A stretch of 31,349 nt of DNA from Scenedesmus sp. ARA3 (taxonomy: Eukaryota; Chlorophyta; Chlorophyceae; Sphaeropleales; Scenedesmaceae): positions 8,354 to 39,702 of the forward strand of contig RWJK01001887.1 of assembly GCA_004335835.1 (NCBI GenBank). Reading direction: 5' to 3'. A program made the translations under genes and the position numbers. Below, one piece after another: positions 250-28,429 of the stretch; positions within the stretch are counted from its first letter, which is position 1, and every line of letters starts with the position of its first letter. The notes under the pieces are model-generated. The model was not told the DNA's origin and made no database searches. It was given only the letters and a program-made list of their open reading frames with translations.

Positions 250-1994
250 CTGTGGTCCAGGCCAGAGTCGCCCCTCCAGTTGATGCGGTTGTTGGCAGGG
301 AGCTTGCCGCTGCGCTGCGCCTCGTAGAACATCATGGACAGGCCCAACACCTGACCGTAGTCGTAGCCGCCGCCTGCGGCAGTCAAACATGACAGAACAG
401 CGGTCAACAGTGGTCAAACAGAAGTCAAACATAGGATCAACATTGTCTTGAGCCCTTTTCAACATCATGGACAGGCCCAGCACCTGGCCGTAGTCGTAGC
501 CGCCGCCTGCGGTGGTCAAACGTTGGTGAGACATTGATCAAACCCTGGTCAAAAATTGGCTGGCCTGTGGCCAAATTGCATCTGCAGCTCTATGGTGCGC
601 TGCTGAAGCAGTGCAAAGCCCTAAGATTATGTTTGTTTATGTGGCGTAGGACAGGCGCAGCAGGTTCAGGCACCTGCTAGTTGCTGTACAGCAGACCATA
701 TGGCCGCTGCTTGCTTGCCATGAAGGCAACCTGGCTCCAGCGGGCTGCAGCCATAACCAAGGCCAACCAACCATGGCATGCAATACACGGAGTACTGACA
801 CACAAGTCTCACCTGCTGCTGTCCTAGCAGCCACAGCGGGCGCTGGTGCAGGAGTAGCGGCACCCACAGGCGTCAGCTGCTGCTGCTGCTGCTGCTGCTG
901 CTGGGGTGCATGGTTGACGTTAGAGGTGTGTGGGATGCTGCCAGTAGAGTCTGGCTGGCAGTTGAAGTACCAGTCATTGTTGCGGATGCAGGTGCTGCCT
1001 GCTGCGCAGCACTTGCCGGCCCAGGGCTGCGGTGATTATGGCATGTGGTGATGATTGTGGTGGGGATGGTGAGGAAGAGCAGGGGATAGGAAAGGATGAG
1101 TGGCAGTAAAGGGAAGGTTGGCGGGCAGCGGCAGCAGCACCAGGTGTCAGCTTGGCTGCTGCTTTCATGGACACGATGCACTGCACTGTGTTGCTTTGAT
1201 TACGTGTGTGGCAAGCTGCGACTTTGCCATGGCACTGCATGTGCTGCAGAGAGTGCGGCTGTCAGGCTGGCATTTGCAGTCTGTCTGCTGGATGCCACTG
1301 CTCCGCTTGAGAAACTGAAGTGCAGAGAGGCAAGCATGCAGGCGCAGGCCATACACTGGGGCCAGCAGCTGCTGCTGCTGCTCCTGATTCGCTGCCCTCT
1401 GCTTTTACAAGTGTCACGTGTGGGTAAGCGCCAGCTGCAGCAGCGCTCACCCCCTCGCAGTCTGCTCCCAGGCAGTTTGACTTGCCACCGCACTGGTCCC
1501 ACACTTTGATGGTGGTCTTGCAATCTGCATGCAGCAAAGAGCGACAGCAAGACAGCAGACTGAACTGATGAGCTGTTGAAAGGGGCGCGGTGTCTGTGCA
1601 GCAACTTGCATGATGAGAGAGGACAAGAAGATGTAGGTCCTGGCACACCATCTTACATGGTACGAGACACAACAGGGTGAACACATATGGTCGAGACCAG
1701 CACTGTAGCACATTGCTGCAGCATGCATGGCTACAGCATGTATTGCTGCGGCATGTGCTGCTGCTGAACGTGCATGCAAAATCGGCTCCACGCGCTTCAA
1801 CTTCGTTAAAAAGCTTGGTAGATACTATAACCAGCTTTCTAGCTTGAAATGTACGGCTGGCACATGCGGTGGGCGCCAACCCGCTAAAGTCAAATTTGGC
1901 CGCGGTCAGACGCTCTTCTAGCCAGCTCACCTTTGTCAGCTGCTGCGAGCTGCAGCAATAAAGCTCCAAAAGCGATGAACAGGAGCGCCCTCAT
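250..1994 (-). CDS. GH9 endoglucanase with N-terminal CBM1-like module (5' part only)
   Basis: Predicted secreted cellulase of glycoside hydrolase family 9, which hydrolyses beta-1,4-glucan. Exons on the minus strand: 1994-1931, 1524-1451, 1026-813, 373-250; the phases join cleanly (1, 0, 1, 2) and all introns are GT-AG. The ATG at 1994 opens a hydrophobic signal peptide (MRALLFIAFGALLLQLAAA). Residues about 23-71 form a cysteine-rich CBM1-like module (WDQCGG, KCCAAGSTC, NNDWYFNCQP), split by intron 2. A Gln8 run and a Pro/Ala linker follow. At residue 118 the GH9 catalytic domain begins, with YDYGQVLGLSMMFYEAQRSG and WRGDSGLDH; family members usually read FYEAQRSGKLP and WRGDS. The catalytic Asp and Glu residues lie beyond the left edge. 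Cys-rich CBMs on green-algal GH9 enzymes are known, so this architecture is credible. GH9 identity is strong; the exon 1-2 junction is slightly less certain. Confidence 0.85.
383..560. repeat. Degenerate TCAAAC-rich repeats in GH9 intron 3
   Basis: Short units of the form GTCAAACA or GGTCAAAC recur at about 383, 401, 411, 424, 513, 536 and 547, on both sides of the exon 4 ghost. The spacing is irregular. They look like local slippage products; no function is visible. Confidence 0.5.
461..511 (-). repeat. Ghost copy of GH9 exon 4 (acceptor side)
   Basis: This segment repeats the acceptor and first ~50 bp of exon 4 (GGYDYGQVLGLSMM in the same frame), then diverges right after the ATGATGTT. It lies in intron 3, upstream of the real exon in gene sense. 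It is truncated and lacks the YEAQRSG continuation and any usable donor, so I treat it as a duplicated splice-junction fragment rather than an alternative exon. Confidence 0.85.
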
Positions 1995-3801
1995 GCTGAT
2001 CAAGGTCCTGCTCTTGTTGTAAGGACTATCGCACGCGGCCTGGCAGCAGGTACAGAAGCACAGCTCTTCTTGATTATTATAACTTTGCCTACTGCAAGCT
2101 TTATTGCTGCTTTTGTGTTGCAGGAGTGCCATTTACATGTTGGGGTGTGAGTTCAGTTCAGTTCAGCAATACACCAGCAGTGTGCTTTACCCTCTGCTCC
2201 ATAGTTAAAAAAACTATTGCAGCAGCATTGTACCACCATACTCACCTTGTTTACTGCTTTTTAAAGCGTCTGCAGTCCACTAGCTGCTGAGCAGGCTGAT
2301 TGTAGAATGCTTCGTACAAAGCTGCGCTTACACCGTCTCTATGACTTTGCTCAGCTACAGTTGTGTACGTTTGCGTGAACTACAAATTATAGTCTGATAG
2401 TTTGGTCAAACGTTTGCGAGCTGACTGGTACCCGCGGTGCTGACTCGCTCATCCCGTACCGCGGCCACCTTCACGCAGCTGCCCTCCCATTCGCGGCTTG
2501 AGGGGCCTTTAACCTTCCACGATACGTTGAAAATTTTGTTTTAGAGAGAACGGTGCCGCTCAGACAAACAGTGCGCCCACACATGCATGTCGGTCACAGC
2601 CTGGGAGCATGACACATGCACAGGGAGCTGCTGAGCGCAGCAAGCTGCTCATCCCGTATGTGCTCGAACAGTCAAGTTCAGATGCAACGACACATGGATT
2701 GCAGGCATGCCGAACAGCAGCATCTGGCCAAGCTTTGAAATGCAGAGCAAGCGGTACAGCACAGCCACGCAAGCAGCAGCTACAGCTGACCTCTGCAGGT
2801 CCAACCCTTGCAACAGCGCCTCACGACAAGAACCACCCTGCAAACGCACCAACCGCAAGCACGGGCTCAAAGGTCGAGTGCATTTCAAGCCAAGCACCAG
2901 ACAAAGCGTCACCAGCATGAGCCATTGCCCGCTACCCAGCTGTTGTAACCAGCGCTGCGGATCACTCATGATGAGTGCCAGGACAAGCAGTAGGGCACTG
3001 CTGCACATGCCGCCTGTGACACACAGCAGCAAGCGCTGTTTGCAACTCAGCCCTGAAGGTATCTCTGTGGCACGCATGAACCCAGCACAGCCGCAGTATG
3101 CATGCAAAACCACATAGCGGTGGACGCTGGACTGCTTGCATGCACCCTGACACAGTCACTCTGTGAACTCAACACAGCAAAGGCCATCGCCACGCTGATG
3201 TCAGCAGCCATGCCCAAACAGCTTCAATATCACGGCAACAACACTGCCCACCGTGCAATTGTGTCGCATTCCCATCCTGCCAATCCACAGCCACCAAACT
3301 GTAACGGTACATGTACAATCAACCAAGCATGAAGCAACGCTGCGCATGTGACGCTGCGGTGACACCCATGCAGCTTACAACACACACAGCCATACCAGCA
3401 GCTGCTCATCAACAGCAGCAGCCATCCATAACTGCAGCTACGATGCATGCAAGAGCACAACAAGAAGGCAGAACAACAACAAACGCCATCATTGACTGCA
3501 GCAGCTGGGGCAGAGGTTTGCAGCGCAGGCAGCGCATGCTCGACAGTTCTGCCTGGCTGCTACATGCCTTGCGCCTGGCAAATACACCCAGCAGCCTGCA
3601 ACAGCCCACGCCAGCTTGCTGCGGCTCCTGCTGCTGCCACTGCCTACCCTGCCAGCAGCAGTTACTGCTTCCACAACGTCCGCACGTAACAGGCCGCTAC
3701 TGCTGCTGCTGCTGCTGCTTCCCCTGCCAGGCCAGCGGCTGCTGCTGCTACTGCTGTTGCCACAGCTGTGACATAGTGGCTAGGCAGCTCTAGCAGCACA
3801 G
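1995..3801. other. Intergenic region: GH9 upstream flank and downstream flank of the 4066-7187 gene
   Basis: No gene is supported. Both neighbours are on the minus strand, so the part near 1995-2560 should hold the GH9 promoter and 5' UTR, and the part near 3801 the downstream flank of the next gene. The longest open frames (2609-2920 plus, 2649-3113 minus, 3311-3793 plus) lack family motifs. The minus frame 2649-3113 is hydrophobic but opens with GTG rather than ATG. A short TTCAG tandem repeat lies near 2152-2166, and CTG/CAG runs sit at 3698-3720. Confidence 0.5.
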
Positions 3802-3995
3802 TCAGCGCAGCACAGGGCAGAGCAGCTCCAGCATAAAGGCAGCCATTCGCTGCTGCCGGTCTTCGCCAAGGGCATCTGTCAGCTGCTTGCCCCTGCAGGG
3901 CTGCTGCTGTGTCAGCCCTGCTATTCCTTCCAAGGCCAGCTGCTGCAGGTCTGAGTTAAGCAAGATGAGTCCAGCCAGCCTAGGCCGAAGTAACT
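3802..3995 (-). other. Coding-like segment, unidentified
   Basis: On the minus strand about 60 codons stay open and read like a helical protein (LLNSDLQQLALEGIAGLTQQ, then MAAFMLELLCPVLR and a TGA at 3804-3802). An in-frame stop near 4000 blocks upstream extension without splicing. The composition is less repetitive than the surrounding shadow frames. It could be a terminal exon of an alternative transcript of the upstream gene, a decayed gene, or chance. I do not recognise a family. Confidence 0.2.
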
Positions 3996-28263: not shown

Positions 28264-28387
28264 AGCATGCAAGCTTCCAGCAATGGCCAATCCCAGCATG
28301 CATCGTTTCAAGTGATTCATATGAGTTGTCCACGGATGCTTGGACTAGCAGTCGCTATGGTCAGCGTTGCAGTTGCCAGGCACTGCG

Positions 28388-28429
28388 GCAGCTGAGCTGG
28401 CAGCACACGTGACACGCGACGTGTTGTGA
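28388..28429 (+). repeat. Ghost copy of the CFAP100 terminal exon end
   Basis: It reads AAELAAHVTRDVL then TGA; the real end is EAELAAFLARDLL then TAA. It lies 166 bp past the real stop, followed by GAAGCCTGAGC, which resembles the AAAGCATGCAAGC after the real stop. Frame and stop are preserved. Confidence 0.8.

Follow-up and report, generated by a model that had tools for sequence, protein, structure and literature searches.

Among the proposed routes of intron gain, tandem genomic duplication of exonic segments bearing AGGT is described, in the accessible portion of PMC3443670, as the only one shown in vivo. In this model, and in the potato case as covered in the available part of PMC4974935, an intragenic duplication doubles the splice signals and splicing conceals the extra DNA. 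Two further systems are close relatives: exon duplication with mutually exclusive exons, which sets copies of exon sequence beside the exon (Exonize, accessible text of PMC12343006), and introners, which add intron sequence in many genes (accessible text of PMC9860276). These traits are echoed in a stretch of 31,349 nucleotides, hereafter the window, from the green alga Scenedesmus sp. ARA3 (draft assembly GCA_004335835.1, 87.27 Mb in 1567 contigs; contig RWJK01001887.1, positions 8,354 to 39,702, forward strand), the introns of which contain partial copies of the edges of neighbouring exons. The first-pass annotation of this DNA had reported such copies in four genes, encoding a glycosyl hydrolase 9 (GH9), a plastid protein, chlorophyll synthase (CHLG) and CFAP100. 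The observation was confirmed, with 35 distinct copies in the last three genes and one additional pair in GH9.

Exon models were checked by hand for five genes comprising 33 exons (CHLG, 7; CFAP100, 17; the plastid protein, 4; a ZC2HC-type gene, 4; and a Rab gene, 1), with the GH9 gene left outside the modelled set. Self-comparison of the window yielded 49 near direct repeats and two other repeat pairs, and 45 local alignments touched exons of CHLG, CFAP100 and the plastid gene (28 exons). All 20 alignments containing the 5' edge of an exon were located upstream of that exon and all 19 containing the 3' edge were located downstream, such that the side rule stated in the first-pass annotation was unbroken (39/39). 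The remainder consisted of five internal alignments and one chained across the CFAP100 exon 15 ladder; apart from this single chained alignment, no clean whole-exon copy with both splice sites was present among the 45. Reduction of the alignments gave the 35 distinct edge copies, distributed over 13 of the 28 exons, all local and on the same strand, with the exon part 74-100% identical to the exon. Intron flank common to the copy and the real exon was found in only 20 of the 35, fewer than the nearly all previously claimed, and these flanks, together with the local, same-strand placement, are unlike a retrocopy, which would be spliced, intron-less and located elsewhere. Splice signals were largely retained, with GT in 14 of 15 donor copies (three stop-codon copies excluded) and AG in 15 of 17 acceptor copies, in line with the expectation that decoy splice sites accumulate. 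The stop codons of CHLG (copies at 12515-12733) and CFAP100 (28391-28435) were also crossed, and hence copying does not depend on a splice site. In each of five window introns with both kinds, the copies of the preceding exon's 3' edge came before those of the next exon's 5' edge.

The anticipated lengthening of introns was also borne out, as arrays accounted for 31%, 62%, and 64% of intron bases in CFAP100, CHLG, and the plastid gene, respectively, and for none in the zinc-finger gene. Within the window, 16 of 17 genic arrays touched a true exon, compared with 12.6 expected by chance. Two genes served as internal controls. In the exon-alignment comparison the intronless Rab gene (13863-14477, plus strand; Pfam Ras) had no copies, and the ZC2HC-type gene (16208-19497, plus strand, 4 exons; Pfam zf-C2HC_2) had only low-complexity CAG-type matches and no edge copies.

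The side rule itself is no evidence for a special process or mechanism, contrary to the earlier interpretation, because tandem topology and an intact exon force it for any tandem copy that spares the exon. After tandem doubling of an exon-intron border, the first donor stays with the complete exon, which leaves only a downstream position for the truncated exon end; acceptors mirror this arrangement.

In CHLG (7500-12439, plus strand, 7 exons), exon 2 had a 5'-edge ladder with a unit of ~125 bp (8048-8457) and a 3'-edge ladder with a unit of 235 bp (8460-9063; copies at 8713 and 8928), and exon 3 had a 5'-edge ladder of 113-bp units (9370-9719) and a 3'-edge ladder of 160-bp units (9726-10145), the outermost copy of which had an unmatched flank. 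Single copies of both edges were present for exon 4 (10310-10531, 5' edge, acceptor AG lost; 10669-10848, 3' edge) and exon 6 (11415-11638, 5' edge; 11705-11935, 3' edge), while exon 7 was preceded by a 5'-edge ladder (11975-12347) and the last exon and 3' end were followed by the copies spanning the stop codon (12372-12733). In the plastid gene (4066-7187, minus strand, 4 exons) the exon at 4507-4704 had one junction-terminated 3'-edge copy (4386-4459, ending at donor +6; array 4380-4580) and an upstream ladder (4585-5349) with copies at 4774, 4927, and 5088 and an internal piece at 5258. The exon at 5807-5905 (array 5351-6202) had 3'-edge copies at 5685, 5566, and 5429, an internal piece at 5352, and 5'-edge copies at 6009 and 6136. 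CFAP100 (20787-28263, plus strand, 17 exons) contained 3'-edge copies of exon 7 at 23322 and 23403 (array 23203-23459), exon 8 with one partial copy (23725-23940; copy 23903-23940), a weak acceptor-side similarity at exon 9 with 7 exon bases in the array (24040-24236), and a single 3'-edge copy of exon 12 (25314-25475). A 5'-edge ladder preceded exon 15 (26473-26737; copies at 26478 and 26581), intron 15 held four 3'-edge copies of exon 15 and then a 5'-edge ladder of exon 16 (26758-27842), and the stop-codon copy closed the 3' end (28225-28435). The GH9 array (328-521, minus strand) paired an exon edge with a single partial copy downstream of it (328-388 / 461-521, 93% identity, offset 133).

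A preferred unit length, overlooked in the first-pass annotation, was evident when the window was combined with a genome sample (described below). Among 121 nearest pairs, spacing was 95-160 bp in 76, with a mode at 120-130 bp; six pairs fell at 160-200 bp and 21 at 200-260 bp, with none at 260-300 bp and none below 60 bp. A weak middle copy was detected in 9 of the 21 pairs with double spacing, compared with 13.5% in controls, and therefore the 200-260 bp peak partly represents two units. Compared with a minisatellite or tandem repeat, in which direct copies follow head to tail at a regular period, several arrays were contiguous and regular, yet an unmatched spacer of at least 20 bp was present in 71 of 108 pairs. 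Three spacers searched genome-wide had no other locus, with the exception of one spacer's own ladder copy, and a mobile spacer was rejected because the three tested were unique.

For the sample, 200 of 386 ten-kb bins were drawn from the listed contigs, longer contigs being favoured, and 25 were fetched; counts rest on 23 loci (230 kb) after exclusion of L004 and L011 (>1000 bases N). Genes were predicted with a small gene finder that had the window as its training set and called 29 of the 33 modelled exons exactly, yet also called copies as exons, giving 57 window exons versus 33 in the five modelled genes (GH9 being unmodelled). Self-trained rounds drifted (59 to 83 window exons), and the limited version was used instead. 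The sample contained 74 arrays, 67 of them within predicted genes versus 59.2 expected by length, and local repeats were direct in 161 cases versus inverted in 17, an excess over expectation of the kind the first-pass annotation had anticipated. Two of the 23 loci, L003 and L008, had no array. Array-bearing genes confirmed by Pfam encoded SMC, HIT, amino-acid transporter, aldo/keto reductase, ADH-type, and SBF-like proteins; two of the ten proteins in the Pfam search had no family. Examples include a 3' exon-edge ladder of eight units, including the exon, in a HIT-family gene (L013:2000-2801, unit ~101 bp) and an exon-edge ladder in an SMC-type gene (L001:9239-10000, unit ~108 bp).

The 139 genic pairs of the sample, in which pairs within one array are non-independent, included 12 without a coding part (45.8 expected), 78 mixed (51.4 expected), and 49 coding (41.8 expected). 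When artificial duplications were planted and decayed, exon-containing pairs were detectable only 1.23 times longer than non-coding pairs. Detection bias as the whole cause was rejected, as a simulated ratio of 1.23 stands against an approximately fourfold depletion of non-coding pairs; the exon-edge preference is therefore not mainly ascertainment, and the earlier worry on this point is largely answered.

The copies comprised two classes with respect to the splice junction. Among 69 nearest pairs with testable room, the copied block extended more than 12 intron bases in 43 (flank-bearing) and 0 to 12 in 26 (junction-terminated). Compared with mismatched controls, donor flank similarity was high in flank-bearing pairs (z 5.63; 21/24 above the 95% level) and close to control in junction-terminated pairs (z 0.53; 2/16), and acceptors behaved similarly (z 2.92, 10/19; z 0.24, 0/10). 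Exon-part identity was 0.915 and 0.916 for flank-bearing and junction-terminated donors, and 0.885 and 0.914 for the corresponding acceptors. Pairs of two copies had a block end within 12 bp of the junction in 14 of 28 donor and 9 of 20 acceptor cases, with two donor blocks ending inside the exon. In 15 of the 16 junction-terminated donor pairs (L005:8893 was excluded for a doubtful exon end), matches at positions +1 to +5 numbered 15, 15, 11, 13, and 13 of 15, and fell to 6 of 15 at +6. Matching was closer with a pair's own donor site than with donor sites from other exons (permutation P 0.0002, +3 to +6), a result conditioned by the choice of pairs by BLAST ends. In a looser set of spacer pairs, flank P was <=0.1 in 38.5% of 26 donors versus 16.0% of controls, and <=0.05 in 36.4% of 22 acceptors versus 12.1% of controls; faint flank homology persists beyond the aligned block in some of these pairs. 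Plain tandem duplication as the source of all copies was rejected for the junction-terminated class, the flank similarity of which was near control while exon identity was equal. The first-pass proposal that each duplication spans one border together with its flank thus stood for the junction-spanning direct duplications and failed for the 26 of 69 pairs with homology ending at the splice signal.

Mismatches in the sample were consistent with a constrained exon accompanied by a free copy. When one copy was predicted to be coding, mismatch was 8.3%, 8.0%, and 16.3% at codon positions 1, 2, and 3, and when neither was, mismatch was 15.4%. The 40 window copies had five new stops and 13 indels, all of lengths not divisible by 3, and copies appear to decay roughly neutrally. 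Window columns with exactly one deviating copy numbered 21, 21, and 34 by codon position, and columns in which all copies agreed against the exon numbered 3, 2, and 12.

The explanation favoured here, with moderate confidence, is a recurrent duplication of ~125 bp across exon edges that is tolerated as splicing is predicted to use the whole-exon site, with the exon part of each copy subsequently renewed. It takes as its starting point the observed position, orientation, side rule, copy order, preferred spacing, sample density, and two copy classes, as well as the sample mismatches, which have the pattern of a constrained copy paired with a free one. The birth event would be slippage or template switching while DNA is copied, and selection would purge events that break the exon. 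The repeats would next expand into ladders, the exon-derived parts being held similar, even between two non-exon copies, with gene conversion from the conserved exon as the probable cause, and the intron flanks would drift until homology stops near the limit of splice constraint (~donor +5, acceptor -3 to -5). Introns would lengthen stepwise, decoy splice sites would accumulate, and a few of the copies would become in-frame exons. Three observations would follow from renewal of the exon part: the equal exon identity with or without recognisable flank, the end of homology near the splice-constraint limit, and the rarity of copies that lack an exon anchor. Copy-to-copy identity also speaks for renewal: in 20 pairs in which neither member is the exon it was 0.861 in the exon part and 0.669 in the flank, compared with 0.569 for unrelated flanks, which is not what simple tandem duplication with neutral decay yields. 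Duplications of the flap type, of Okazaki-fragment size, are short and direct and characteristically measure near 100-150 bp, and a link to the ~125 bp unit may be considered by analogy, as a lead only.

Several results weigh against renewed tandem duplication. The junction-terminated copies would not be predicted by simple tandem duplication, and gene conversion is invoked for them rather than observed. The copy-to-copy flank identity of 0.669 is too low for indel-shifted flanks, which the measure misses, and some low-value copies of the plastid gene were homologous by another alignment. A hidden middle copy does not suffice to explain the 200-260 bp peak, being present in 9 of 21 pairs only. 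The spacer was homologous to outside flank in 31 of the 71 spacer-bearing pairs, leaving 40 without (19/33, 7/20, and 5/18 homologous by rising identity class). Sample pairs with both copies predicted to be coding differed by 9.3%, 9.4%, and 13.8% at the three codon positions. Furthermore, window mismatch to the exon (5.8%, 5.0%, and 18.1%) was over-skewed for neutral copies, and mismatch between copies (8.1%, 6.0%, and 21.2%) had the same third-position skew, which shared ladder history inflates but may not fully explain.

The best surviving alternative is that templated repair, with DNA or nascent RNA as the template, placed exon-edge pieces bounded by splice signals in the adjacent intron, the surrounding intron being old and contiguous; this is possible, if on the unlikely side. 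It accounts for the sharp border more directly than renewal does, given the frequency of block ends within 12 bp of the junction, the near-control flanks of junction-terminated pairs at equal or higher exon identity, the drop in donor matches from +5 to +6, and the absence of the three tested spacers elsewhere in the genome. Free insertion, however, would not ensure the strict side in the window or the great excess of direct over inverted repeats, copies also cross stop codons, BLAST stopping points condition the block ends, part of the pairs keep faint flank homology, and the flank-bearing copies would require a second mechanism. A related and rather doubtful proposal is that splice signals act as copying borders, edges up to donor +5 or acceptor -3 being repeatedly recopied into the neighbouring intron in ~125 bp steps that both build introns and keep them similar.

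That the copies are functional alternative exons under selection is improbable, even though three of them coincide with in-frame exons of predicted T. obliquus isoforms, all with lengths that are multiples of 3. These are a 78-nt exon of CHLG (9902-9979; 26 residues, isoform P0001), a 144-nt exon from a copy region of CFAP100 (23313-23456; 48 residues, P0194), and a 54-nt exon of CFAP100 (26478-26531; 18 residues, P0194 and P0195), all on the plus strand. The codon-position-3 bias between window copies also points in this direction. Against it, none of the 13 indels preserves frame, there are five stops, the NDYYDREIDAINEP stretch is altered in both 3'-edge copies of CHLG exon 3, each edge copy carries only one exon edge, and the sample gives the neutral 1:2 ratio. 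Moreover, the isoforms may be ab initio calls, as the gene finder used here called 9902-9979 and 23313-23456 exactly. Coding constraint on the copies was thus unsupported by the indels, stops, and sample, the window codon-3 bias being the exception. The copies are absent from the main T. obliquus proteins (P0003 and P0193) and are used only in the predicted isoforms; the plastid protein P0121 includes none of them. The first-pass claim that splicing keeps to the outermost sites therefore agrees with the main proteins and is qualified by the three isoform exons; judging from predicted proteins, a few copies may at times be spliced in.

Unequal exchange between diverged haplotypes, which would join the exon edge of one to the intron of the other, is very improbable. 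It would account for unmatched flanks and mainly synonymous differences, but introns should still align at 90-97% exon identity, and the Chlamydomonas CFAP100 protein, used as a query, matched this gene 6 times and another contig once, more weakly, with no second gene copy. An assembly artefact is scarcely credible despite the draft of 1567 contigs, as copies diverge from the exon, the three tested spacers are unique, and identical copied peptides are present in the proteins of two further T. obliquus gene sets, located on contigs over 4 Mb.

All five modelled genes gave in-frame translations, and the CHLG, CFAP100, and plastid-protein models match T. obliquus proteins. CFAP100 from its second ATG was listed at 100% identity to OEZ86_010400 over 99% of the query, with at least one residue differing; the plastid protein was listed at 100% identity to its homologue OEZ86_010404 over 88%; and CHLG had three residue differences from OEZ86_010403 within aligned exons. 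Since these three proteins are near-identical, the alga is likely T. obliquus or a very near relative. Pfam confirmed GH9 (PF00759), UbiA (in CHLG), DUF4200, and zf-C2HC_2 among the window proteins. CFAP100 exon 10 has an apparent GC donor (AAG|GCAAGG, 24690-24695). The intergenic right end (28852-31349) contains three diverged copies of a ~950-1070 bp unit (71-86% identity, no exon seen inside) and an 8-bp repeat, GGCTGGTT, present almost four times at 29678-29707. Predicted proteins of the window and of L001-L025 very often contain CAG/GCT runs and long stretches of Ala, Ser, and Gln.

If one array per ~3 kb holds genome-wide, a rough extrapolation from the sample gives ~28,000 arrays in 87 Mb, and at that density introns would grow largely from pieces of their own exons. 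The alga would then offer thousands of natural pairs of used and ignored splice sites in near-identical sequence, a natural test of decoy avoidance, and intron lengthening, exon birth, and splice-site choice would become directly testable. Gene predictors can be expected to call such copies as exons, as the gene finder did here.

In agreement with the first-pass statement that no described process of exactly this kind was known at this density, no account of such exon-edge ladders was found in the literature searched, which left most subscription journals outside its coverage, and partial exon duplications in Haematococcus were unsupported by the accessible part of PMC7617258. Clear differences separate the alga from each of the three closest systems, as these are presented in the available portions of their sources. 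In exon duplication of the Exonize type (PMC12343006) exons are duplicated, whereas the copies here are partial and carry one exon edge, with no clean whole-exon copy. Unlike introners (PMC9860276), no dispersed family with similar inserts at unrelated sites was seen, the three tested spacers are single-locus, and exon parts match their own exon. In the AGGT model (PMC3443670) the doubling of an exonic segment creates a new intron position; no new intron position was seen in the normal mRNA represented by P0003 and P0193. In the alga, by comparison, truncated copies form recurrent ladders at many exon edges and at high density, and existing introns grow while the main protein is unchanged.

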